In this document: piece after piece, positions 8,868 to 30,063 of the stretch
Layout: each line of letters begins with the position of its first letter
Numbering within the stretch: position 1 is the stretch's first letter
Assembly (NCBI GenBank): GCA_944383515.1
Contig: CALWPV010000075.1
Location: forward strand, 1-32,145
Direction of reading: 5' to 3'
DNA: 32,145 nucleotides
Source: an uncultured Clostridia bacterium
GTDB lineage: Bacteria > Bacillota > Clostridia > Lachnospirales > Bianqueaceae
Made by a program: the position numbers and the translations under genes
The notes under the pieces: generated by a model
Seen by the model: the letters and a program-made list of their open reading frames with translations, nothing else
Databases searched by the model: none
What the model was told of the DNA's origin: nothing

Positions 8868-9710
8868 TTATCGCTTGGGTTTATAAAGCACTTCATTCAC
8901 CGCGTACACCGTAACGAAGGCATCGGGATCTACCTGTTTAATAAAGTTCATGAGCTTAACGTATTCGTGCTTATTGACAATGACAATGATTTCGGTCTGC
9001 TTTTCTTCGTCATACGCACCGTACGCATGATATAACGTAGCGCCGCTTTTTAAATCGTCCAGTACAAAGCGGCGTATTTCTTTTTCCTTTGCGGACAAAA
9101 TGCAGACGCGCTTCTTCATACTGGAGCCGAAAATAAAATGATCCAGCACCATACCAAAAACATACGTACCCAGCACGCTAAGAACAACCGTTTTCATGTC
9201 GTAAATAAACACGGCCGAAACCGCTACGCACATACCGGTCAGCGCCATGGCTCTTCCCAAATCGATATGCAGATACTTGTTAAGGATTTTAGCAATAATA
9301 TCCAGACCGCCCGACGACGCATTGCGCACAAAAAGCATGGCAAGGCCTACGCTCACGGCAAAACAATACAAAACCATATCGGTAAACGCATCTCCCGTGA
9401 TAGATGCCTGCTGGGGAAACAGCTTTTCCAATACAGCTAAGAAGACCGGCAATAAAATAGACGTATATACTGTTTTAACGCCAAATTCCTTCCCCAACGT
9501 TACAAAACCCAGCAGAAGCAGCCCCACATTCATAACCATAGTCCAGGTTGATACCGAAAGCGGCGTCACCTCGCTTAACAAAATGGCCAAACCGGAAATG
9601 CTGCCGATCGCCAAATGGCTGGGCACCAGAAAAAAGAATACGGCGGCGGCTGTAATTAACGTCCCCAGTGTAATATAAGCAAAATCCCCTACTTTTTGCA
9701 TCACTTTCAC
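8868..9710 (-). CDS. YitT-family membrane protein with C-terminal DUF2179 domain
   Basis: Integral membrane protein of the YitT/DUF161 family; transport or sensing roles are suspected but not established. It has 280 residues from the chosen start. Five or six hydrophobic spans fill about 10-195, including the glycine-rich segment ASSGGLDIIAKILNKY typical of the family. A soluble C-terminal domain (about 200-280, DUF2179) with a beta-alpha-beta pattern follows. The start is a GTG at 9708-9710, with GAGGAGG 8 bases upstream. The more distal in-frame GTG at 9734 has no ribosome site, and the good site lies inside that extension. It begins 34 bases after the stop of the ParB-like/BMP gene and is probably cotranscribed with it, which hints at a shared sensing or transport task. 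Confidence 0.87.
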   Translation of the reverse strand: MKVMQKVGDFAYITLGTLITAAAVFFFLVPSHLAIGSISGLAILLSEVTPLSVSTWTMVMNVGLLLLGFVTLGKEFGVKTVYTSILLPVFLAVLEKLFPQQASITGDAFTDMVLYCFAVSVGLAMLFVRNASSGGLDIIAKILNKYLHIDLGRAMALTGMCVAVSAVFIYDMKTVVLSVLGTYVFGMVLDHFIFGSSMKKRVCILSAKEKEIRRFVLDDLKSGATLYHAYGAYDEEKQTEIIVIVNKHEYVKLMNFIKQVDPDAFVTVYAVNEVLYKPKR

Positions 9711-9744
9711 AACTCTTTCCTCCTCTTTCGCCACTGCAAGCGTA

Positions 9745-11697
9745 TTACAGCTCTACAACACCCTCGCTGTCACTGCTGCCGTCTTGCGAAGACGTAATTA
9801 GTTTTTGCGCATCGGGCGTAAGCTCGGCAGTCGACGGAATTTCACCAATCACATTATCAATCAGCCAGTCCATGGTAACAATGTCATTGGTGCTGATATA
9901 TCCGTCTTCCTGCGCACGCAGGCGCCCCTGCTGGTCATGAATATAGCCGTCAAACGGCCCTACCATAAGGTGCGTAATGCTCCGCTTATAAAACTGAACC
10001 AGCTGCTGCACGCCTTCCGGCAGATCCTCTGAGTAGATCATATCGACAACATTGGAAGATAACCCCCACCAATAGTTGATCGATTTCAGTTCTTCGGTAT
10101 CGTCAACCTCGTCCCAAGAACCGCTTAAAATACTGCGAATGATTCTCTCATAAAAATGTCCCCAGTTCCAGTATGGCATGGCCAGGCCGCGAATTTCGTC
10201 TTCTTCAATCATGTAAAGACCGAATTTTCGATTGGCCAGCCCCGGCGTAATCATATCCTGGTGCGAAATCATGTCTACATCCAGCTTTTCCAGCGTTTCA
10301 TTGACATTCTGATCCTTTTGCGTAGACCAGCGCAGATATACTTTAGCCTGTGGATTAACAATCTGCACGCCGCGAGCGAAGGCATTGATGTTCGCAATCA
10401 TTCCGGAAATGGGGTAATCGGCTACATAAGCGATTCGGTTTTTCTTTGTCATGGCTCCGGCAATGAGCCCGCAAAGAAACTTGGCTTCATACATGCGACC
10501 ATAATACGTGCGCAAATGCCGATACGCCATATTCACCGAACAATTTAAAAATTTCACCTGTGGGTGGTTGATCGCGGCTTTTAGCGTTTGCTGAATCAGC
10601 TGCGGGGTTGTGGTAAAAATCACGTCGAACTCCCTAGCCACCAATTCTTCTAAAATTTCATCCGGTGTTTTTTCCCGTTGAAATACGGAATCAATCGCCG
10701 TAATTTCTACCTGATCGCCCATTACGTCTTCCAAATACATACGCCCCAGCTCATGGCTATACGTCCAGCTGGAAGTTTCTTTGGTTTTATCATGTACAAA
10801 CGCGATCTTCAGCTTTTTCTTATTGCTGCCGCTCAGCGCGCTGGTCAGCAGATTGACAATGCCTTTGTGGGCCGGCTCTTCTAATGGCTGCATTTGAAGC
10901 CCCACCGGTGTATCCTGCTCTAACAGCTGAATGCTTTCCCAGATTTTTGACAGCTCTTCTTTTAAATCTTCATCGCTTTGCTTTAAAATATCGTCTAAAG
11001 AGAATATTTTTAAAAATTCTAAAAGGGCGTCGCCCACCGTGATATGAAGCTTTTCACCGCCCAGCGCCTTAAACGCATTAGAAAACCGGACATAGCAAGA
11101 ACGAAAATCTTTTTGAAAATCAGTATCCCAATCTTCTCGTTTTGTGCGCCCCAGCACCTGTAAAATTTTAAGAAAGTTTCCTTCCTTGGAGAACCATAGG
11201 TAATTGATATAGGCAACTTTAAAAAATTGCAAAAACTCACGATAAATATTGGATTCATGGCTGCCGTCTGGTCTGGGAATAATACGGGTTACTTCGCCGG
11301 TAATCTCTACGGCGCCAAAATACTTCAAAACGCTAACCCGCTTATTGCCTTCAATGACATAAAAACGGTTCATAAATTCATAGCATTTAATCGGATCCCG
11401 AATGCCTTCTTTCAGGTGAATGTCGCAAAGCGCAATCCACTTGGCCGCGAATTCACTGTCTTCATCCAGAAGGGGCATAAAATTGCTGGCAAAGGCTGTA
11501 CTGCGTGCATGGCTGTTGGTACCGACAATGCGATCAATCGGAATATCATTGATCCCCAGCGATACCTCGGATTCGATCTCGATATTGCTCGTCAGCTCTT
11601 CTAAAACCTGCAGATAGGGATATACCCCCTTTGCCAGATTGGCTTGATATTCTTTGCGGCCCTGCCGCAGTGCTCTTTTATAATCTCCTACTGCCAT
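9745..11697 (-). CDS. ParB-like domain fused to BMP/PnrA-type ligand-binding domain
   Basis: A 650-residue protein with no signal peptide or membrane span, so apparently cytoplasmic. The N-terminal third looks like the ParB/sulfiredoxin fold: an entry around LGINDIPIDRIVGT (47-60) and the signature VIEGNKRVSVLKYFG (114-128). A charged helical region follows to about 285. From about 295 on it matches the BMP (Med/PnrA) family of purine-nucleoside-binding lipoproteins, starting KLKIAFVHD and containing a SWTYSHELGRMY block, but it lacks the export signal and lipobox such proteins need. It is often labelled a BMP transporter protein, but a cytoplasmic nucleoside or nucleotide sensor seems more likely. 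The start ATG at 11697 has GGAGGA 6 bases upstream; the ATG at 11721 does not. Its promoter is interleaved with that of divergent clpE. Confidence 0.8.
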   Translation of the reverse strand: MAVGDYKRALRQGRKEYQANLAKGVYPYLQVLEELTSNIEIESEVSLGINDIPIDRIVGTNSHARSTAFASNFMPLLDEDSEFAAKWIALCDIHLKEGIRDPIKCYEFMNRFYVIEGNKRVSVLKYFGAVEITGEVTRIIPRPDGSHESNIYREFLQFFKVAYINYLWFSKEGNFLKILQVLGRTKREDWDTDFQKDFRSCYVRFSNAFKALGGEKLHITVGDALLEFLKIFSLDDILKQSDEDLKEELSKIWESIQLLEQDTPVGLQMQPLEEPAHKGIVNLLTSALSGSNKKKLKIAFVHDKTKETSSWTYSHELGRMYLEDVMGDQVEITAIDSVFQREKTPDEILEELVAREFDVIFTTTPQLIQQTLKAAINHPQVKFLNCSVNMAYRHLRTYYGRMYEAKFLCGLIAGAMTKKNRIAYVADYPISGMIANINAFARGVQIVNPQAKVYLRWSTQKDQNVNETLEKLDVDMISHQDMITPGLANRKFGLYMIEEDEIRGLAMPYWNWGHFYERIIRSILSGSWDEVDDTEELKSINYWWGLSSNVVDMIYSEDLPEGVQQLVQFYKRSITHLMVGPFDGYIHDQQGRLRAQEDGYISTNDIVTMDWLIDNVIGEIPSTAELTPDAQKLITSSQDGSSDSEGVVEL

Positions 11698-11750
11698 GTG
11701 CGCTCCTCCAACTGTGAACAAACTTTTAAATCTTTCTGATTTTCTACCCT

Positions 11751-11779
11751 ATTATAGCAAAAAGACTTGCAAATGTGAA
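11751..11779 (-). promoter_or_regulatory. Sigma-A promoter of the ParB-like/BMP gene
   Basis: -35 TTCACA (11774-11779), 17-base spacer, -10 TATAAT (11751-11756). Its -35 box lies inside the spacer of the opposing clpE promoter, so the two polymerases should exclude each other. Confidence 0.72.
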
Positions 11780-11864: not shown

Positions 11865-14189
11865 ATGTTATGTCAAGTTTGTCATAAAAATACAGCGGTT
11901 TTGTTTGTAAACCGCATGGAAAAAGGGCAAAACCGGCAAATCGCGATGTGTTTGACTTGTGCGCAGAAAAACGGTTTTTCCCTTAAAACTATGTTGGAAC
12001 AAAATGGTTTTAAGCCGGAAGACATGGAGAATATTGGCGAACAAATGAACGCCCTCATGGAAAATCTGTCTGAAAACGGCGATATGGAAGAAATGGAAAA
12101 GCTCTTCCCGCCGGATATGCTGAATATGATGATGGGGGCTTCTCATGCCGGCGAAGAATCGGACCAGGATTCGAATACGGAAATGGTGGCCGATGTTGAT
12201 TTGCCTGACGATAGCGGCGCTTCCGGGGCCGATGCCGCGCAAGACGACCGCCGAGTGCGCTATAACAAGCACCGCGCCGACAAGCTGAAAACGCTGTCCA
12301 AATTCAGCACCAACCTAACCGACCGGGCTGCGCACGGCGAAATTGATACCGTTGTGGGGCGTAGCCGTGAAATTGATCGGCTGATGCAAATTTTAAATCG
12401 GCGGACCAAAAATAATCCGGTGCTCCTGGGCGAGCCCGGTGTGGGGAAAACGGCCATTGCCGAGGGCTTTGCTCTTTTAATTGCGCAGGGACGGGTGCCT
12501 GTTAAGCTGCGCGACAAAGAAGTATATCTGTTAGATATGACAGGGCTGGTGGCCGGCACACAGTTTCGCGGGCAATTCGAGGCCAGAATGAAGGCCATTA
12601 TTAACGAGGTGACCAGTGCTGGCAACGTTATTTTAGTGATTGACGAAATCCATAACATTATGGGGGCCGGCGATGCGCAGGGCTCTATGAACGCCGCTAA
12701 CATTTTAAAACCGGCGCTGGCTAACGGCAGTCTGCAGGTAATCGGTACCACCACGCTGGAAGAATACCGAAAATACATTGAAAAAGACTCTGCGCTGGAG
12801 CGCCGTTTTCAGCCTATTATTGTTGACGAACCCTCTACCGAGGAAACCATTGAAATTCTCAAGGGCATTCGTCCTCATTACGAACATTACCATAACGTCT
12901 CGATTTCAGACGAAATAATTGAAGACGCAGTTCATCTTTCTCAGCGCTATATCCACCAGCGCTTCTTGCCGGATAAAGCCATTGACGTAATTGACGAGGC
13001 GGCTTCCCGCGTCAATCTCAATAATACCGGCCTGATTGATCTTCAGGATCTGGAGAAAACGCTGGCCGTTACGCTGCAAAAGAAGGAAGACGCCGCTTCC
13101 GCCGAAGATTTTGAAACCGCGGCCAAATGCCGCGTTGAAGAATTGCGGCTCGAAAAAGAAATTGCGGCTAAAAAAGAGGCCTGCATGCATATGCCGCTTA
13201 CCTTCGACGATCTAGCGCATGTGATTGAAGGCTGGACCAAAATTCCCGTTAAACGTCTGACACAGGCAGAATCGGCCAAACTCATTTCTCTGGAGGAGCG
13301 CCTGCATCAGCGCATTGTTGGCCAAGACGACGCCGTTTCCGCGCTCTCGCGGGCTATTCGCCGCAATCGTTCCGGGTTCCGTAAGGAAAGAAAGCCGGCT
13401 TCATTTATTTTCGCCGGCCCCACCGGCGTTGGTAAAACCGAACTGGTTAAAACGCTGGCCGTTGAACTGTTCGGTACCGAAGACGCGCTGCTGCGTATCG
13501 ATATGTCGGAATATATGGAAAAGCATACTGTTTCCAAGTTAATCGGAGCGCCTCCCGGATACGTTGGGTATGATCAGGGCGGGCAATTAACGGAAAAAGT
13601 GCGCCGCCGTCCTTTCTCGCTCATTTTGCTGGACGAGATTGAAAAAGCGCATAGCGACGTCTTTAACATGCTTCTGCAGATTTTAGACGACGGTCGTTTA
13701 ACCGATAGCCAGGGCCGCACCGTTAACTTTGAAAACACCATTATTGTTATGACAACCAATGCGGGAGCCAGCTTTAAAAATAACGGACTCGGCTTTAACC
13801 AAAGCGAACCGGAAGCTCTCTCCTCTCGTATTGAGGCAGCGCTGAAACAGATTTTCCGTCCCGAGTTTTTAAACCGTGTCGATGAAATTATTACTTTTGA
13901 TCCGCTGACCAAACCGCAGCTTCGCCAAATTGTCGATCTGATGCTGCAGGACGTATACCATTCGGGCGAATATCAGAATATTCAGATTGCCGTAACTGAC
14001 GAAGTGAAAGAATACCTAACGGAAAACGGCTACGACGAAAAATATGGAGCGCGTCCTCTGCGCCGCCTGATTCAGCGGAGCATTGAAGACGAAATTGCCG
14101 AAGCATTTTTGAAAGAAGAAATTGTACCGGGCGACCATATTACGCTCGTTATGGAACAGGGAAAACCGTCTATTCGAAAAGACGCGTAA
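11865..14189 (+). CDS. clpE: ClpE-type AAA+ unfoldase with N-terminal zinc finger
   Basis: Hsp100 ATPase that unfolds proteins, normally for the ClpP protease. The 774 residues open with a CxxC...CxxC zinc finger (C3, C6, then CLTC near 29-32) in place of the double Clp-N repeat of ClpC. That is the hallmark of ClpE. A Met/Glu/Asp-rich linker runs to about 130. The first AAA+ module has Walker A GEPGVGKT near 189 and Walker B VIDEIH near 256. A UVR-like coiled insert is at about 407-440. The second module has Walker A GPTGVGKT at 518 and Walker B LLDEIEKAH near 586. The LGF tripeptide near 642 fits the ClpP-docking loop. The ATG has GGAGG 8 bases upstream. It is longer than Bacillus ClpE (about 700 residues). 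No ctsR, mcsA or mcsB gene is adjacent. ClpC is the alternative label. Confidence 0.88.
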   Translation: MLCQVCHKNTAVLFVNRMEKGQNRQIAMCLTCAQKNGFSLKTMLEQNGFKPEDMENIGEQMNALMENLSENGDMEEMEKLFPPDMLNMMMGASHAGEESDQDSNTEMVADVDLPDDSGASGADAAQDDRRVRYNKHRADKLKTLSKFSTNLTDRAAHGEIDTVVGRSREIDRLMQILNRRTKNNPVLLGEPGVGKTAIAEGFALLIAQGRVPVKLRDKEVYLLDMTGLVAGTQFRGQFEARMKAIINEVTSAGNVILVIDEIHNIMGAGDAQGSMNAANILKPALANGSLQVIGTTTLEEYRKYIEKDSALERRFQPIIVDEPSTEETIEILKGIRPHYEHYHNVSISDEIIEDAVHLSQRYIHQRFLPDKAIDVIDEAASRVNLNNTGLIDLQDLEKTLAVTLQKKEDAASAEDFETAAKCRVEELRLEKEIAAKKEACMHMPLTFDDLAHVIEGWTKIPVKRLTQAESAKLISLEERLHQRIVGQDDAVSALSRAIRRNRSGFRKERKPASFIFAGPTGVGKTELVKTLAVELFGTEDALLRIDMSEYMEKHTVSKLIGAPPGYVGYDQGGQLTEKVRRRPFSLILLDEIEKAHSDVFNMLLQILDDGRLTDSQGRTVNFENTIIVMTTNAGASFKNNGLGFNQSEPEALSSRIEAALKQIFRPEFLNRVDEIITFDPLTKPQLRQIVDLMLQDVYHSGEYQNIQIAVTDEVKEYLTENGYDEKYGARPLRRLIQRSIEDEIAEAFLKEEIVPGDHITLVMEQGKPSIRKDA

Positions 14190-21695: not shown

Positions 21696-24128
21696 TTAGT
21701 GATCTAAATGGGTCAAATGCCAAATCCGCTCGTCATAATCCAGCACTGAGCGATCCGCAGCAAAAATACCAGCTTTAGAAACATTAATTATCGCCTTACG
21801 ATTCCATGGCTCTGTATGGCGAAAAGCTTGATCCGCTTCGCGCTGTGCGCGGCAATAATCTTCAAAATCTGCCAGCACTAAATAAGGATCGGCTACATTG
21901 CCAGCACTATTGAAGAGAAGTGCATTCGCCAGATCGGGAAAGGCAATCTCATGCCCGGGGCTACCAACGCCATGCTGAATGGCGCTAACAATACGGTGAA
22001 TCCAGAAGTTGTTCTGATAATACTCCATTGCGTTATATCCATGCCGCAAAAGATCATTAACCTGCTCGGTTAACAGACCAAACAAAAACATGTTTTCTTT
22101 GCCTACTTGCTGGCAGATTTCAACATTAGCTCCGTCTAGCGTGCCTATGGTCAGAGCGCCGTTTAGCATAAATTTCATGTTGCCGGTACCGGAAGCCTCG
22201 CGGCCGGCAGTAGAAATCTGTTCACTCAGGTTAGCGGCCGGCATCAGAATTTCTGCTACCGTTACTTTGTAATCTTGAATGAAGACCACTTTCATTTTAT
22301 CGTTAACGGCCGGATCGTTATTGACCATATCGGCCACGGCATGAATGAGGCGAATAATCTGCTTAGCGCGACTATAACCGGGCGCGGCCTTAGCGCCGAA
22401 CAAAAAGGTTCTCGGCACATAGTCCATATTGGGATTATCTTTATACTCATAGTACATGCGCAAAATGTGCAGCACATTCAGTAGCTGGCGCTTATATTCG
22501 TGAAGCCGTTTGGCCTGCGCGTCAAAAATAGAACCGGGATCTACGACAATACCGTTTTCTCTTTCAATAAACTCGGCCAAACGAATTTTATTGGCACGCT
22601 TAATGGCTTCAAATTGTTCAAGAACCGCACTATCGTTTGCAAACTTTCCAAACTTCTCCAGTTCGTTCGGGTTCGTTAAAAAGCCGTCGCCAATACATTC
22701 CTGAATGAGGTGGGTAAGCAGCGGATTGCCCTGCCCCAGCCATCTCCGGTAAGCAATACCATTGGTGACATTGCGGAATTTATCAGGCGCATCTATATAA
22801 AAATCATGGAAGCAATCGTCTTTTAGAATCTGTGAATGCAGTTCTGAAACACCGTTAACAGAAAATGAACCGACAATGGACAAATGCGCCATGCGAATTT
22901 CGCCATTAGCCACAATGGCCATTTTAGAAATTTTTTTCCAGTTTCCGGGGAAAACCGTCCACAAATGCTCGCAGAACCGTCTATTAATCTCTACAATAAT
23001 CTGGTGAATACGGGGGACGATTTTCTTAATTAAATCTTCCGGCCAGCGTTCCAGGGCTTCTACCATAACGGTATGATTCGTATAAGCCACGGTTTTCGTT
23101 GTAATAGCCCAGGCTTCGTCCCAGCCCAGTCCGTGCTCATCCATCATAATACGCATCAGTTCCGGAATAACCATAGCCGGATGCGTATCATTGATCTGAA
23201 TCACAATGTGATCCGACAAATTCTGCAGCGTACCATATTGTTTTAAATGTTTATTCAAAATGCTCTGCACCGAAGCGGAAATAAAGAAATACTGCTGCTT
23301 GATACGCAGAGATTTTCCTTCATAGTTATTGTCTTCCGGATACAAAACCTTAGAGAGTACCTCCGCCATGGCTTTTTGCTCCATGGCTTTTAAGTATGCC
23401 CCCTCATTAAACAAAGTCATGTTAATCGTATACGGTGACTGAGGCTGCCACAGTCTAAGCGTATTGACGGTTTTGGACTGATAACCAGAAATCATCATGT
23501 CATTCGGCACCGCATAGACGCTGTCATAATTTTGCAGCGACACTTTCATCCGTCCGTTTTCCCATTCTTCTACCAGTTGACCGCCAAACTTAACTTCTAC
23601 CATTTCGTCCTGCTTGGTAATCAGCCAGCTTCGTCCGGTATCCAGCCAGCTGTCGGGAAGCTCGGTTTGCTGCCCTTCAATAATTCTCTGCTTAAACAAG
23701 CCATACTCGTAAAGAATGCTAAAACCGGTGGCCGGCAGCCCCTGGGAGGCCATACCGTCCATATAGCAGGCTGCCAAACGTCCTAAACCACCGTTGCCCA
23801 GCGCCGCATCCTGCTCAATGTCACAAATGGAATCAAAACTGGTGCCCATTTGAGTTAGCATTTCGCTAAATTCATGCATCAGGCCCAAATTATAAACATT
23901 ATTGCGCAAAGAACGCCCCAGCAAAAATTCAATCGAAAGATAACATACCTGTTTAGCCTGCGTTTTCTCCATTTCTTCTTGCGTAGCCACCCATTTTTCC
24001 ATGAGCATATCACGCACAACCAAAGCACAGGCGTCATAAATCATTTTAGGATTGGCGTCTTCGCTTACGACACCGTAATGTCGTTTCAGTTTTCCATTCA
24101 CCAATTCCTGAAGCTGTTTAACTGTCAT
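21696..24128 (-). CDS. glgP: Glycogen/starch/alpha-glucan phosphorylase
   Basis: Releases glucose-1-phosphate from the non-reducing ends of glycogen. The 810 residues are typical of GT35. The early block YLSIEFLLGRSLRNN and the glycine-rich DAALGNGGLGRLAACYMDG are present, as is the pyridoxal-phosphate site EASGTGNMKFMLNGA with the cofactor lysine near 653. The ATG has GAGGAG 8 bases upstream. It is the last gene of the operon, 74 bases after glgA, with a hairpin in that gap that could lower its expression relative to the synthesis genes. Having breakdown and synthesis enzymes in one operon implies that control must act partly on enzyme activity. Confidence 0.97.
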   Translation of the reverse strand: MTVKQLQELVNGKLKRHYGVVSEDANPKMIYDACALVVRDMLMEKWVATQEEMEKTQAKQVCYLSIEFLLGRSLRNNVYNLGLMHEFSEMLTQMGTSFDSICDIEQDAALGNGGLGRLAACYMDGMASQGLPATGFSILYEYGLFKQRIIEGQQTELPDSWLDTGRSWLITKQDEMVEVKFGGQLVEEWENGRMKVSLQNYDSVYAVPNDMMISGYQSKTVNTLRLWQPQSPYTINMTLFNEGAYLKAMEQKAMAEVLSKVLYPEDNNYEGKSLRIKQQYFFISASVQSILNKHLKQYGTLQNLSDHIVIQINDTHPAMVIPELMRIMMDEHGLGWDEAWAITTKTVAYTNHTVMVEALERWPEDLIKKIVPRIHQIIVEINRRFCEHLWTVFPGNWKKISKMAIVANGEIRMAHLSIVGSFSVNGVSELHSQILKDDCFHDFYIDAPDKFRNVTNGIAYRRWLGQGNPLLTHLIQECIGDGFLTNPNELEKFGKFANDSAVLEQFEAIKRANKIRLAEFIERENGIVVDPGSIFDAQAKRLHEYKRQLLNVLHILRMYYEYKDNPNMDYVPRTFLFGAKAAPGYSRAKQIIRLIHAVADMVNNDPAVNDKMKVVFIQDYKVTVAEILMPAANLSEQISTAGREASGTGNMKFMLNGALTIGTLDGANVEICQQVGKENMFLFGLLTEQVNDLLRHGYNAMEYYQNNFWIHRIVSAIQHGVGSPGHEIAFPDLANALLFNSAGNVADPYLVLADFEDYCRAQREADQAFRHTEPWNRKAIINVSKAGIFAADRSVLDYDERIWHLTHLDH

Positions 24129-24157
24129 ACCTCATACTCCTCACTTCCTAATCACCA

Positions 24158-24192
24158 AATAACAGATGGGACAATAGGTCCCACCTGTTATT
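24158..24192 (-). terminator. Hairpin between glgA and glgP (possible attenuator)
   Basis: AATAACAGGTGGGAC pairs with GTCCCATCTGTTATT (15 pairs, one G-U) around a 5-base loop. The following TTTGG is a poor T tract, so partial termination or a 3'-end stability element is likely rather than a full stop. Confidence 0.6.
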
Positions 24193-24202
24193 GATCATCT
24201 AG

Positions 24203-25642
24203 TTATCGTTTGTTCGTCAATTTACGATACAGCGCCATATATTCTCTGGCTGGGCCGTTCCAGCTAAAGTCTTGACGCATCGCGTTTTCTACTAAAACCG
24301 GCCACTGCTCCGGATTATAATAGGCCGCCTCTGCCTGCCGAATGACATGTAACATATCATGCGCATTGTAATTTGCAAAGGTAAAGCCCGTACCCTTGCC
24401 TTCCCAAGAAATATACGGCAAAACCGTATCTTTAAGGCCACCCGTTTCCCGAACCACAGGAATGGTGCCATACCGCATCGCGATCATCTGCGAAAGGCCG
24501 CACGGTTCGCTTTGAGAGGGCATTAAGAAAATATCGGCTCCGGCATAGATTTTTTGTGCCAAGTCACTATTAAATGTAATATTAGCAGAAACCTTCCCCG
24601 GGTAACGCGCCGCCGCTTCCCTCATCATTTCCTCGTACCGCCAGTCGCCGGTCCCCAATACCACCAGCTGCACATCGTCATATAAAATATCGTCCAGCAC
24701 GGCTTCTACCAGATCCAGACCCTTATGATCTACCAAGCGCGTTACCATGGCAATCATGGGAATTTCTGGATTAACCGGCAGATTCAGTAGCTTTTGTAGC
24801 TCCGTTTTATTGACCTTTTTATCGGCTATCGTTTCTAAGGAATAATTTTTGAACAAATGAGGGTCGGTTTCCGGATTATAGGTATCATAATCGATGCCGT
24901 TAATAATACCGCTTAACTTGGCGTTTTCCTGCTGCAATAGTGTTTGCAATCCATGCCCGTAGTATGCATTTTGAATTTCCTGCGCATACGTAGGGCTCAC
25001 TGTCGTCACCCAACTGGCGGCCATAATGCCCGTCTTCATGAAATTGACGCAGTTATCAAACTGAATATAGCCGCCCGCATAATCCAGCCAGTCCAGTCCC
25101 AATACATTTTCTACAATATCCGGAGAAAAAATACCCTGATACTGAATATTATGAATGGTATAGACCACCTGCACGTGCTGATAGCAGTCGTTAATATTGC
25201 GGTAGAATTTGTTTAAATAAAACGGCAATAATCCCGTTTGCCAATCGTTGCAGTTAATCACGTCGGGTTCAAAATCAATATGCTGCAGCAGCTCCAGCGC
25301 CGCTTTAGAGAAAAACGCAAACCGCTCCGCATCGTCAAAATGGCCATAGAAACCGCGCCGACCAAAATAATACTGATTATCCAGCAAATAATACGTTACG
25401 CCATTGACTTTGGCCTCAAAAATGCCGCAGTACTGACTTCTCCATGATAGCGGCACCCACATTTCCTTGAGAAATGTTAGCTGATCCTTTAGATCCTGAC
25501 GAATTTCCTGATACAACGGCAATACTACCCTAACGCCTACCAGCTTTTTTCGAAGCGCCGCCGGCAACGCACCGGCTACATCGCCTAACCCGCCTGACTT
25601 TGCAAACGGAACCGCTTCCGACGCTACATATAGCACCTTCAT
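24203..25642 (-). CDS. glgA: Glycogen synthase (ADP-glucose type)
   Basis: Transfers glucose from ADP-glucose to the growing alpha-1,4 chain; GT5 family with a GT-B fold. The 479 residues match the usual length. The N-terminal loop KSGGLGDV (about 15-22) binds ADP-glucose. The C-terminal block PSQSEPCGLSQMIAMRYG contains the catalytic-site Glu, followed by RETGGLKDTV. The start ATG at 25640-25642 has AGGTGAGGA just upstream and gives the canonical MKVLYVASE. An ATG at 25660 overlapping the glgD stop would add six residues unlike the family and is rejected. It begins 17 bases after glgD. Confidence 0.97.
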   Translation of the reverse strand: MKVLYVASEAVPFAKSGGLGDVAGALPAALRKKLVGVRVVLPLYQEIRQDLKDQLTFLKEMWVPLSWRSQYCGIFEAKVNGVTYYLLDNQYYFGRRGFYGHFDDAERFAFFSKAALELLQHIDFEPDVINCNDWQTGLLPFYLNKFYRNINDCYQHVQVVYTIHNIQYQGIFSPDIVENVLGLDWLDYAGGYIQFDNCVNFMKTGIMAASWVTTVSPTYAQEIQNAYYGHGLQTLLQQENAKLSGIINGIDYDTYNPETDPHLFKNYSLETIADKKVNKTELQKLLNLPVNPEIPMIAMVTRLVDHKGLDLVEAVLDDILYDDVQLVVLGTGDWRYEEMMREAAARYPGKVSANITFNSDLAQKIYAGADIFLMPSQSEPCGLSQMIAMRYGTIPVVRETGGLKDTVLPYISWEGKGTGFTFANYNAHDMLHVIRQAEAAYYNPEQWPVLVENAMRQDFSWNGPAREYMALYRKLTNKR

Positions 25643-25659
25643 AGATTCCTCACCTCTCA

Positions 25660-26772
25660 TTAGACTACGCTTCCTTTAGCCAACACCATCGGATAGAGTT
25701 TGTATCCGAAGAGCTTTCTGTTTTCACGAATCACAACATCTTTATCGATAATGGCATATTCAAGCTGACTGTTCGACTGAATCTCACACGCTTGCATAAT
25801 AATCGAATTTTTAACCACAGCGCCTTTTCGAATGCGTACGCCGCGGAATATAATGCTGTTTTCCACTTCTCCCTCAATCACGCAGCCATCGGCTACCAAC
25901 GAATTTTTCACGTCGCTGCCATTTTGATAGAGCGTGGGCACTTCGTCACGGATTTTAGTAAAAATCTGCCGCGGCTGATAGAAAAGAGCCTGCCGGATGC
26001 TTTCGTTGAGTAAATCCATGCTCGCCTGGAAGTAGGAAGCGATCGATTCTATTTTAGCATAATATCCGGTATATTCATATCCATAAATCTTCAAATCATT
26101 GACCCGTTTTTGCAACACATCTCTGTGGAAGCTGTACATATTATGGCTGGCGCACTCCCGAATCAGGGTCTCTAAAAGCGACTTGCCAATAATAATTTGG
26201 TCCATGCTTAAATTATCTCGGCCAACCAGCGGATTAACCGCAACGTCAATTACCCGTCCGTCTGCATCGCACTGAATGAAGCAATTATTCTCATGCTCAT
26301 TTTGCCGCTCGAACTTACCTTTTTTATAAATAATCGTAATGTCGGCATCTTTCTCAATGTGGTAATTCAACGCGTCGTCAAAATTCATGTTGCAGACTGA
26401 ATCGGCCGAAGCAATCATAATATATTTATAATTGGACTTACGGATAAACGCATCGGCATTGCCCAGCGCCTCCATTTCTCCGCGATACGAGCCCTCCGAC
26501 TGTGAGAACGGGGGCAGCATATACAGACCGCCGTTTTTACGGCTTAAATCCCACTCTTTGCCAGAACCCAAATGATCCATTAATGACTGGTAATTATTCC
26601 GAGTAATAATACCCACCTGTGTGATACCAGAATTCACCATATTGGAAAGCGCAAAGTCAACGATTCGATACCGGCCTCCAAAAGGAATGGAAGAAAGCGC
26701 TCTTTTCTGCGTAAGCTCCCGCATTAACTCATCATTTTGATAAGCAAAGATTAGACCCATAGTATTTTTCAT
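25660..26772 (-). CDS. glgD: GlgD, non-catalytic partner of ADP-glucose pyrophosphorylase
   Basis: A GlgC paralogue found in Firmicutes that pairs with GlgC and modulates its activity; it is normally inactive alone. The 370 residues keep the nucleotidyltransferase fold (SIPFGGRYRIVDFALSN) and the C-terminal left-handed beta-helix repeats. The N-terminal catalytic loop is degenerate: where GlgC has LAGGQGSRL, this has FAYQNDELM. That is the expected GlgD state, not a mutation. AGGAGGGG precedes the ATG. It follows glgC by 20 bases. Confidence 0.95.
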   Translation of the reverse strand: MKNTMGLIFAYQNDELMRELTQKRALSSIPFGGRYRIVDFALSNMVNSGITQVGIITRNNYQSLMDHLGSGKEWDLSRKNGGLYMLPPFSQSEGSYRGEMEALGNADAFIRKSNYKYIMIASADSVCNMNFDDALNYHIEKDADITIIYKKGKFERQNEHENNCFIQCDADGRVIDVAVNPLVGRDNLSMDQIIIGKSLLETLIRECASHNMYSFHRDVLQKRVNDLKIYGYEYTGYYAKIESIASYFQASMDLLNESIRQALFYQPRQIFTKIRDEVPTLYQNGSDVKNSLVADGCVIEGEVENSIIFRGVRIRKGAVVKNSIIMQACEIQSNSQLEYAIIDKDVVIRENRKLFGYKLYPMVLAKGSVV

Positions 26773-26792
26773 TTCGGATTCCCCTCCTTTTA

Positions 26793-28013
26793 TTATAACC
26801 GGTCTTCGTCCAGCATTTCGCCGGCCTTAACAATCTGATTCTCGCCGATTCGAATTTCATCGCCTAGTACAGCCATATAACCGGACATTTTACCGGGTTC
26901 CACGGTAGCCATGGCCTCTTCTTTGCGGCAGCCCACTTGTGCGCCCCGGCCTACCACGGTCTCTTGTCCAATAATGGAATATTCCACTACGGCGCCGGCC
27001 TCAATCCGCGTGTTCGGCAAAATTACCGAATCTTTCACCACCGCGCCTTCTCCAATATAGACCCCGTGGAAAATGACAGAATGCTCTACACTGCCATAAA
27101 CCTGCGTTCCTTCTGTAATCATGGAGTTTTTAATCTGCGCCATGGAAGAGCAGAAATGAGGGGCTTCGTTAGGATTGCGTGCATAGATTTTCCATGTAGG
27201 GTCCGAAAGGTTAATCGGATTACTGGGGTCGAGCAGCTCCATATTGGCTTCCCACAGCGAATCCAGTGTTCCTACGTCTTTCCAGTAACCGGAAAATTCA
27301 TATGCATACATCGGCTCGCCCGCATTCAGCATGTTGGGTATAATATTTTTACCAAAGTCATTGGAAGAACCCGCCGTCGCTTCATCGGCCTCCAAATACT
27401 CCTTCAGCTTTTTCCAGCTGAATACATAAACACCCATGGAGGCTTTTGTTGATTTGGGATGAGCCGGCTTTTCCTCAAATTCATAAATCCGATTATTTTC
27501 GTCGGTATTCATAATGCCAAAACGGCTTGCTTCTTCCAGCGACACGTTAAGAACGGCAATAGTGCACGCGGCGCCCTGTCGTTTATGGAAATCAATCATT
27601 TTAGAGTAATTCATTTTATAAATGTGATCTCCCGAAAGCACCACAACATACTCCGGATCATAGCGTTCAATAAAGTGCATGTTCTGGTAAATAGCGTTCG
27701 CCGTACCCTTATACCACTGTCCGTCCTTACCGCGCACATACGGCGGCAATACCGATACGCCTCCATCGTTTCGATCCAGGTCCCAAGGCTGGCCATTTCC
27801 AATGTAGGCATTTAAATCCAGCGGCATATACTGCGTTAGAACGCCCACCGTGTCAATCCCTGAGTTAATACAGTTGCTCAGAGTAAAATCGATAATTCGA
27901 TATTTACCCCCAAATGGAATTGCCGGCTTAGCCACTTTTTTAGTGAGCACCCCTAAGCGGCTGCCCTGGCCACCAGCCAGCAGCATTGCTACGCTTTCTT
28001 TTTTAGTACGCAT
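26793..28013 (-). CDS. glgC: Glucose-1-phosphate adenylyltransferase (ADP-glucose pyrophosphorylase)
   Basis: Makes ADP-glucose from ATP and glucose-1-phosphate, the committed step of glycogen synthesis. The 406 residues show the signature [13 protein letters not shown] near 10-22, [15 protein letters not shown], the substrate-site [10 protein letters not shown] and [10 protein letters not shown], then the C-terminal beta-helix ([15 protein letters not shown]). The start ATG at 28011-28013 has GGAGGAG 6 bases upstream. An ATG at 28028 lies before that site and is rejected. It follows glgB by 61 bases. Confidence 0.97.
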
Positions 28014-28074
28014 ATGATTCTCCTCCATTCTGGATTAAATTATAGATACAGGCTGTTATCCCACGGCATGCCGA

Positions 28075-30063
28075 TTAGGACGCGTGAGGTTTTTTCTTGC
28101 CTGTTGTCTTTCTCTTTTTCCCCTCTGCTTTTGGCGCTTTTTCCGGTTGATCCTCGGTCTTTTTAGAGGACCGTTTTTTTCTGGTTGTAAAATAAACGCC
28201 GGCCATAGGGGGAACAGTAATCTCAATTGAATACTCGTATCCGTGCATTGGCTTTTTCTCGGCAGCGATCTGCTTAGGGTTGCCTATGCCCGAACCTCCG
28301 AACCGAACATCATCGCTATTCAGCGCTTCTACATAATACGCATCCTGATACACTCCCATTCGATAATGCTCTCTGGCAATAGGAGAAAAATTAACAACAA
28401 CAATGATTTCTTTTCCGCTTCTGTCAATTCTTCTAAACGATACCACGTTTTGCGTGTTGTCGTCGTAACAGATCCACTTAAATCCTTCCCAAGAATCGTC
28501 TTGCTCATAAAAAGGAGAATGTTTTAAATAAAAACGGTTGAGGTCTTTAACATAGTCCTGCATCTTTTGGTGCATATCGTACCCCAGAAGATTCCAGTCT
28601 AGTTCTTGCGCATAGTTCCACTCTATAAACTGCCCAAACTCGCCGCCCATAAATAATAGCTTTTTCCCGGGGTGCGCCATGGTATACGCATAAAACGCTC
28701 GCAGACCGGCAAATTTTTGCTCATAGTCTCCCGGATTTTTATTTAAAAGGGAACACTTACCATGCACCACTTCATCATGCGAAAGCGGTAAAATGTAGTT
28801 TTCCGAAAACGCATAGGTTAAAGAAAACGTAATATTATTATGGTTGTCTTTGCGGAAGAACGGATCTAGCGAGATATAATGCAGCATATCGTTCATCCAG
28901 CCCATATTCCATTTAAAATTAAATCCCAGACCGCCTACATCGGTCGGCTTGGTAACCAGAGGCCATGCCGTCGATTCTTCAGCAATCATAAGCGCGCCGG
29001 GGTGCTCTTTGAAAACCGCCTCATTCAGGGTTTGCAAAAAATGAATCGCTTCCAGGTTTTCATTGCCTCCATTTTGATTGGCAATCCACTGTCCGTCTTT
29101 TCTCCCATAATCCAGATACAACATACTAGCTACGGCGTCAACCCGAAGGCCGTCTACATGGTACATATCCAGCCAGTACATAGCGCTGGAAATCAAAAAG
29201 CTGATTACCTCTGGCCTGCCGTAATCAAAAACTTTGGTTCCCCATTCATAATGCTCCCCTTTGCGAGGATCTTCGTATTCATATAACGCATGTCCGTCAA
29301 ACCAAGATAAGCCCGCCTCGTCTTTGGGAAAATGCGCCGGTACCCAGTCCATTATGACCCCAATCTGATGCTGGTGGCAAATATCTACAAACTCCATAAA
29401 CTGCTTCGGCGTACCGTAGCGTGAAGTGGGCGCAAAATACCCCGATACCTGATACCCCCAAGAACCGTCAAAAGGATATTCCGAAAGCGGCATAAGCTCA
29501 ATATGAGTATAACCCATTTCTTTCACATAGGGGCACAGCTCTTTAGCCAGCGAAACATAGTCGTAATAACTGCCGTCTTCTCTTAGCTTCCACGAACCGG
29601 CATGCAGCTCGTAAATATTCATGGGCGCTTCATACAGATTGGAACGGTCCCGTTTATTCATCCAGCGCGTATCATGCCAGCGATACCCTTCTAAATGGTA
29701 AATTTTGCTACCCGTTGCCGGTCGCGTCTCCATATGAAACCCATATGGATCGCTTTTCATGTACGTATGTCCGTCGTAACCTTCAATACAATATTTATAA
29801 GTATCGTATTCCTTAAAACCGTAGCCAAATCCTTCCCAGATTCCGGCACTGCTAATTTTTTTCATAGAAATTCCCTGTTTGGAATCCCAATCACAAAAAT
29901 CACCCACAACAGCAATGCTCTTGGCATGGGGCGCCCATACGCGAAATACGGTACAAGAATTTCCCACTTCATCCACCGTATCATGCGCCCCCAAATATAA
30001 GTAAGAACGATAATTCGTTCCTTCATGAAAGACATGCACGGCAAAGTTGTTTGCTTTGTTCAT
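28075..30063 (-). CDS. glgB: 1,4-alpha-glucan branching enzyme with lysine-rich C-terminal tail
   Basis: Introduces alpha-1,6 branches into glycogen; GH13 family. The 662 residues hold an N-terminal CBM48 domain (about 35-120, VFRVWAPHAKSIAVVGDF) and then the (beta/alpha)8 barrel, with nucleophile D near 308 in DGLRVDAVASM, acid Glu near 361 in IAEEST, and the SHDEVVHGK block. A C-terminal beta-sheet domain ends at VYFTTRKKR. After that come about 30 residues of Lys/Pro/Ala/Thr (ending KKRKTTGKKKPHAS), beyond the usual end. It is the first gene of the operon, with its own promoter. GGGAG lies 10 bases before the ATG. Confidence 0.97.
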   Translation of the reverse strand: MNKANNFAVHVFHEGTNYRSYLYLGAHDTVDEVGNSCTVFRVWAPHAKSIAVVGDFCDWDSKQGISMKKISSAGIWEGFGYGFKEYDTYKYCIEGYDGHTYMKSDPYGFHMETRPATGSKIYHLEGYRWHDTRWMNKRDRSNLYEAPMNIYELHAGSWKLREDGSYYDYVSLAKELCPYVKEMGYTHIELMPLSEYPFDGSWGYQVSGYFAPTSRYGTPKQFMEFVDICHQHQIGVIMDWVPAHFPKDEAGLSWFDGHALYEYEDPRKGEHYEWGTKVFDYGRPEVISFLISSAMYWLDMYHVDGLRVDAVASMLYLDYGRKDGQWIANQNGGNENLEAIHFLQTLNEAVFKEHPGALMIAEESTAWPLVTKPTDVGGLGFNFKWNMGWMNDMLHYISLDPFFRKDNHNNITFSLTYAFSENYILPLSHDEVVHGKCSLLNKNPGDYEQKFAGLRAFYAYTMAHPGKKLLFMGGEFGQFIEWNYAQELDWNLLGYDMHQKMQDYVKDLNRFYLKHSPFYEQDDSWEGFKWICYDDNTQNVVSFRRIDRSGKEIIVVVNFSPIAREHYRMGVYQDAYYVEALNSDDVRFGGSGIGNPKQIAAEKKPMHGYEYSIEITVPPMAGVYFTTRKKRSSKKTEDQPEKAPKAEGKKRKTTGKKKPHAS

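Follow-up and report, generated by a model that had tools for sequence, protein, structure and literature searches.

The gene at positions 9745..11697 (minus strand) of the analysed stretch of DNA (32,145 nucleotides from an uncultured Clostridia bacterium of the family Bianqueaceae; hereafter the window) raises the question of whether its product is what its Pfam label says. In the encoded protein (650 aa plus stop codon, ATG at 11697), Pfam names a BMP domain only, i.e. the binding protein of an ABC transporter, and the anatomy of the protein contradicts this label. A ParB/sulfiredoxin (Srx)-like domain, a helical region and the BMP domain follow one another from the N- to the C-terminus. 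The protein is a cytoplasmic fusion of a ParB-like domain with a BMP domain, so that two well-studied folds, one associated with nucleotide binding (ParB/Srx) and the other with ligand binding (BMP), are united in one polypeptide.

The cytoplasmic location had been proposed in the first-pass annotation, which described the protein as devoid of an export signal unless one was hidden 5' of the chosen start. Analysis of the upstream region revealed that the frame can be extended by at most 8 codons, up to a TTG at 11721, and the claim was upheld. A candidate promoter lies at 11751..11779 (minus strand), with the sigma-70-like sequence TTCACA-17-TATAAT (11 of 12 consensus positions); it was called by consensus only, and nine such sites occur in the region against 6.5 expected. 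If this site (11779-11751) is the promoter, a hidden signal peptide would not fit upstream. In five of 12 relatives examined (loci L002, L003, L005, L006 and L010), the frame offers no start codon 5' of the corresponding one. The mean Kyte-Doolittle value of the most hydrophobic 15-residue stretch within the first 50 aa was 0.52 for the window protein and 1.28-1.75 for the top five of 48 fusions, compared with 1.97-3.58 (first 60 aa) for 13 exported BMP paralogues. Judged by the start site and by this hydrophobicity measure, the fusion carries neither a signal peptide nor a lipobox. A PHROGs search with the fusion gave no match. Rfam detected no regulatory RNA in the window, and only tRNAs and RNase P in the loci of 15 relatives.

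The BMP domain (AtzT-like, PnrA-family) spans residues about 293-625 (9823..10821, minus strand), and its assignment was borne out at several levels. The PF02608 match (E 1.2e-21) scored 77.5 bits against a gathering score of 24.1, and PDB entry 6pi5 matched residues 293-621 by sequence (E 1.2e-31). Among the Foldseek matches listed for the full-length model, 6pi5 and 3s99 were also the closest by fold (E about 1e-17); the best 50 of 1474 matches included 22 at E 0.001 or better, all of them BMP-family or ABC binding proteins. The possibility that we are dealing with the usual substrate-binding component of an ABC transporter for nucleosides, whose start has been misread, agrees with the Pfam label and is nevertheless barely credible. 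It is contradicted by the fusion anatomy: the N-terminal part of 290 aa is conserved in 49 distinct fusions and no signal peptide precedes it. Moreover, in the genome from which the window derives, the fusion is the sole BMP match, and the single BPD_transp_2 permease (L083:56-2166, contig G000:C35) is located beside a different lipoprotein, presumably a TrpX-like one.

The ParB/Srx-fold domain occupies residues about 45-145 (11263..11565, minus strand). Direct Pfam and NCBIfam searches with the fusion protein returned no ParB model, and a 13-member profile of residues 1-290 retrieved sulfiredoxin only (E 0.61). The assignment was therefore made in two steps, from the fusion to stand-alone relatives and from these to solved ParB/Srx structures. 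Profile-profile comparison (hhalign) aligned residues 27-186 of the fusion with the stand-alone relatives at 98.5% probability (E 2.2e-15), and the core profile of these relatives, used to search the genome of origin, recovered the window protein at 11131-11607 (E 7.7e-16). Of 24 matches of the stand-alone profile among 177,635 PDB sequences (E 5 or better), 21 were named ParB/Spo0J, Noc, sulfiredoxin, SbnI or serine kinase, one was a conserved hypothetical protein (1vk1) and two were unrelated. The best match, Spo0J (E 3.5e-4), was the sole one below 0.001; the rest of the 21 named matches ranged from 0.013 to 0.7. As judged by these profiles, the N-terminal domain of the fusion is of the ParB/sulfiredoxin fold, which agrees with the first-pass annotation. 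In AlphaFold models, whether built for residues 1-290 or for the full-length protein, the ParB core is unreliable (pLDDT below 50). With the model of residues 1-290, Foldseek produced no match at E 0.001 or better, and VIA-align gave only weak matches (best Z 4.3), mostly to residues 152-265; ParB chains were not among them, an absence that carries no weight given the poor model.

The sequence originally quoted for this domain, VIEGNKRVSVLKYFG, contains the GxxR (P) motif, here E116-G117-N118-K119-R120 (11338..11352, minus strand). Among 49 distinct fusions, counted without any string filter and including the divergent L086, EGNKR is present in 48 and EGHKR in one, while G117 and R120 are found in all 49. 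The stand-alone proteins in the alignment carry DGNHR (10/11) or DGHHR (1/11). It is worth mentioning that the sets of 48 fusions used for hydrophobicity and for the binding site were chosen partly by the string GNKR.

Between the two domains lies a helical region (residues 146-290; 10828..11262, minus strand), for which AlphaFold gave pLDDT values (per ten residues) of 81-94 over residues 141-260 and low values beyond. It corresponds in position to a region of the stand-alone relatives that matches DUF4032; the fusion itself gave no DUF4032 match. Of six long stand-alone relatives scanned, five carry a C-terminal 4Fe-4S ferredoxin module over the cut-off and three carry DUF4032, also over the cut-off, between the ParB-like part and the C-terminus; the sixth protein (L087) has neither over the cut-off. 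The first cysteines of the ferredoxin module are missing in 4 of 11 aligned proteins (L087, L088, L089 and L094), which indicates that ferredoxin is frequent, and not constant, among the stand-alone relatives. The BMP domain of the fusion occupies the place of this module; that several relatives have ferredoxin there instead points to a shared core whose inputs can be exchanged.

The first-pass annotation expected similar proteins in other Clostridia, and this proved correct. All 19 genomes searched from the same family gave a match, which in G008 and G009 is limited to the N-terminal part and lies at a contig end. Among 245 genomes from the order (drawn at a completeness of at least 90), 113 gave a match, 51 of these by the BMP half only, and 62 carry the fusion; the latter count was made by hand from the match table and includes genes broken by contig ends or split (G009, G103). 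In an even draw from the phylum, the N-terminal part was detected in 23 of 398 genomes, as 5 fusions (own class only) and 18 shorter proteins. The fusion is conserved and is neither a chance product nor an assembly artefact. One genome (G158) contains, besides the ordinary fusion, a second, divergent ParB-like/BMP fusion (L086:2630-4411, contig G158:C72) of 593 aa and 30% identity, adjoining what we take to be a methyltransferase gene and two genes presumably forming an AbiE-type pair.

The genes flanking the fusion in the window are of limited distribution as neighbours. A yitT/DUF2179 gene (8868..9734, minus strand) lies 10 nt downstream, and coupling of the fusion to its membrane protein had been suggested. 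This suggestion does not stand: yitT adjoins the fusion at just 2 of the 49 distinct loci, which belong to the genus of the window's genome, and YitT is present in 234 of 245 genomes, so it was rejected as a partner. A gene that we presume to be clpE-like (11865..14189, plus strand) is divergent from the fusion, and this arrangement was found in 11 of the 49 loci, all within the same family (L015-L024 and L057; 11 of 16 family loci). ClpE was also rejected; the 5 family loci without it comprise four with an adjacent metallophosphoesterase (MPE) gene and one in which the contig stops on the side of the MPE. These neighbour counts depend on the length of the flanks, which are short in some of the 49 loci. 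Elsewhere in the window (21696-30063) there is presumably a glycogen cluster, with genes for phosphorylase, synthase, branching enzyme and two tandem ADP-glucose pyrophosphorylase-like proteins.

The partner of the fusion is the MPE, not YitT, and this was overlooked in the first-pass annotation. A gene encoding an MPE of ~200 aa follows the fusion in all ten loci L004-L013. Within the same 245 genomes, the fusion is present in 62, the MPE in 61 and both in 60; thus 60 of the 62 fusion-bearing genomes have the MPE, against 1 of the remaining 183 (Fisher p about 1e-53, a statistic that ignores relatedness). In six hand-listed genera in which some genomes have the fusion and others do not (g17, g25, g42, g53, g57 and g83), the MPE tracks the fusion genome by genome, which argues that relatedness alone is not the explanation of this co-occurrence. 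The MPE gene lies 12-225 nt downstream of the fusion (measured between match ends) in 48 of the 62 genomes, 26 of them with both genes on one strand and 22 with the genes arranged tail-to-tail. It is located on another contig in 12 (9 of them in the family of the window's genome) and was not found in two (G003 and G013); the G013 contig stops 138 bases past the fusion match. In Clostridium symbiosum the two genes overlap. The window's own genome has its MPE on another contig (G000:C69:28080-28676); this MPE shares 59% identity with that of C. symbiosum.

Within the family, 4 of the 16 distinct loci have an adjacent MPE (L025, L026, L028 and L029), none of them with clpE, and 12 lack one, including L030, which ends at a contig edge. 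The genus of the window's genome belongs with the majority in having the two genes apart. The family loci split into those with divergent clpE and no MPE (11) and those with an adjacent MPE and no clpE (4). The single genome of the 245 with the MPE and no fusion (G110; L120:4865-5494) carries it in the midst of what appear to be additional phosphoesterase genes.

The pairing extends to the non-fused relatives from other families of the phylum, in which 14 of the 18 loci have the MPE gene directly upstream in the same orientation; the other four have short frames (127-183 codons). Short ParB-like frames (about 125-170 aa) without an adjacent MPE (L096:4351-4725, L097:5933-6310, L103:5607-6065 and L104:5763-6269) are possibly core-only proteins. 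In L098, L101 and L102 the MPE and ParB/ferredoxin pair is followed by a gene that we take to be Sir2-like.

All three MPEs scanned matched PF00149 over the cut-off. Among solved structures, MPPED2 (3rl4, E 0.001) comes closest in sequence, and the match to the YfcE model (E 8e-5, 22.8 bits) lies under its cut-off of 56.25. Residues D8, D34, N57, H58, H129, H165 and H167 are invariant in 37/37 fusion partners and in 15/15 other MPEs (one of them from G110); going by the motifs of the family, we presume that they are metal ligands. The motifs GD, GNHD, H and GHxH are kept, and the histidine of DxH is replaced by Glu in 34 of the 37 fusion partners and by Pro in three. Activity of the MPE is plausible; DxE in place of DxH could mean that it is altered or lost. 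The fact that the fusion travels with one MPE gene suggests an uncharacterised two-gene system. Such tight co-inheritance with a single phosphoesterase yields a concrete hypothesis, which may be tested in culturable species, e.g. C. symbiosum.

What the BMP domain binds was approached through AtzT, whose guanine contacts are Tyr45, Trp194, Ser97, the Phe98 backbone, Glu165, Asn218 and Asn220 (PMC6834077). A single numbering offset places all seven named residue types on the 6pi5 chain, and the positions were compared across two sets from one order, comprising 48 fusions and 13 exported paralogues. Glu165 is present in 13/13 exported paralogues and 0/48 fusions (Gly in 43), as is Trp194 (13/13 versus 0/48; Lys in 36), where the loop is shortened in the fusions. 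Position 45 is aromatic in all 48 fusions and all 13 paralogues. Ser97 is retained in 12/13 paralogues, compared with Ser in 21 and Thr in 17 of the 48 fusions. Position 218 is His in 13/13 paralogues and mixed in the fusions (Asn in 5/48), and position 220 is Asp or Asn in the paralogues (Asp in 12) and Asp or Glu in 48/48 fusions. The AtzT-type purine site, with its Tyr/Trp sandwich, Ser97, Glu165, Asn218 and Asn220, is therefore not retained as a whole in the fusions. They have near-invariant residues of their own (e.g. N385 in 46/48, K406 in 47/48 and W544 in 46/48), which, together with the loss of Glu165 and Trp194, suggests that the domain is still selected for a ligand and that this ligand is probably different from that of AtzT. 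The fusion would accordingly not be an ordinary purine binder.

These substitutions weaken the idea, put forward at the outset, of a soluble purine or nucleoside sensor, in which the BMP domain would still recognise a purine base or a nucleoside, to be read out by the ParB part. In its favour are the BMP fold itself, the nearest solved relatives of which bind guanine, adenine or nucleosides, and the retention of W311 (49/49 fusions), which supplies one aromatic face, and of D481 (46/49). As far as AtzT-type contacts are compared, the complete loss of Glu165 and Trp194 from the fusions makes such a sensor rather doubtful; a nucleoside might be held through other, PnrA-type contacts. An alternative derived from the other end of the protein is a ParB-like, DNA-binding CTP switch, i.e. 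a regulator that loads on DNA. Spo0J and Noc are indeed among the closest solved matches of the core profile; however, neither a helix-turn-helix (HTH) nor a ParB C-terminal domain was detected in the fusion (Pfam at E 10, NCBIfam at E 1), its constant partner is an MPE, and a PF02195 (ParB_N) search of the genome of origin placed two other proteins over the cut-off, with the fusion absent from the result. No ParA gene was recognised by eye in the ORF lists beside the fusion. We regard a switch of this type as improbable.

Our best explanation, held tentatively and with somewhat less than even confidence, is that the fusion acts in the cytoplasm as a nucleotide enzyme or switch of the ParB/Srx type, which responds to a ligand and works with its dedicated MPE. 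The ParB/Srx-fold domain would bind a nucleotide via the GxxR motif. The remodelled BMP domain, kin of exported AtzT-like proteins, would bind a small molecule, probably not plain guanine or adenine, and would gate the ParB-like domain. The MPE may then act on the product, or on a phosphorylated target, of that domain. Alongside the observed domain make-up (ParB by sequence profile), the missing export signal, the conserved GxxR, the altered site and the link to the MPE in both distribution and position, the simplest mechanism would be a nucleotide-using domain that is gated by a ligand domain and has a phosphoesterase as its counterpart; it could take the form of a kinase/phosphatase pair, of a maker and an eraser of a signal, or of an NTP switch. 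Several observations speak against this explanation, namely the unreliable model of the ParB core, the DxE motif of the MPE, the separation of the two genes in most loci of the family, and G110 with its MPE and no fusion. According to the main text of a survey of the ParB-CTPase fold, replacement of the GxxR arginine by alanine abolished nucleotide binding, and 17 of the 28 proteins with this fold that were purified failed to bind an NTP (PMC12704722); binding of NTP by the fusion therefore cannot be assumed.

One specific form of this explanation, and not exclusive of it, is a kinase/phosphatase pair, in which a SerK/SbnI-like kinase would phosphorylate a small molecule bound to the BMP domain, and the phosphate would be removed again by the MPE. 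The stand-alone relatives, with their DGNHR or DGHHR motifs, match the SerK model weakly (best L098, E 5e-5), their profile matches a serine kinase and SbnI in the PDB, and the pairing with a phosphoesterase is constant. On the other hand, the fusion has EGNKR instead of DGNHR, the best SerK match is far under the cut-off (22.5 versus 380 bits), and MPPED2, the nearest solved relative of the MPE, is reported to be a phosphodiesterase. The fusion gave no NCBIfam match and is thus not over the curated SerK/SbnI cut-offs. Such a pair is possible, yet on balance unlikely. A broader proposal, which we put forward as speculative, is a modular two-protein system, for signalling or for modification, spread across the phylum, comprising (i) a ParB/Srx nucleotide enzyme, (ii) an exchangeable sensor, and (iii) an opposing MPE, in which a phosphorylated small-molecule or nucleotide signal would be made and erased. 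The sensor module would be ferredoxin-like in several families outside the class, and BMP in the order of the window's genome and in some relatives within the class.

A search of the literature, with supplements and most subscription papers outside its reach, found no account of a ParB-like/BMP fusion or of its pairing with an MPE, and no papers on DUF4032. ParB-fold fusions are already known as a kind from the survey cited above (Kaljevic et al. 2025, PMC12704722), whose main text describes ParB/Srx domains with GxxR fused to other domains, as here. Its domain search was seeded on PF02195, which misses the window fusion, and its main text nowhere refers to BMP, metallophosphoesterase, ferredoxin or DUF4032 (PMC12704722). 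The closest solved relatives of the BMP domain by sequence and fold, AtzT (6pi5) and the purine-binding Brucella BMP lipoprotein (3s99), are stand-alone binding proteins, in contrast to the fusion, which has no signal peptide and has lost AtzT Glu165 and Trp194 in 48/48 cases. Med, an activator of comK (2hqb; a regulator according to its PDB title), also matches this domain by fold (E 2.4e-6). SerK (an ADP-dependent serine kinase) and SbnI are ParB/Srx-fold enzymes acting on a small molecule and are weakly matched by the stand-alone relatives, but their P motif differs from that of the fusion, and to our knowledge a BMP domain is not part of these families. Finally, the partner MPE resembles the MPPED2- and YfcE-type metallophosphoesterases in its PF00149 domain and in its matches to both, and differs from them in having DxE for DxH, in scoring under the YfcE cut-off and in its constant pairing with ParB-like proteins.
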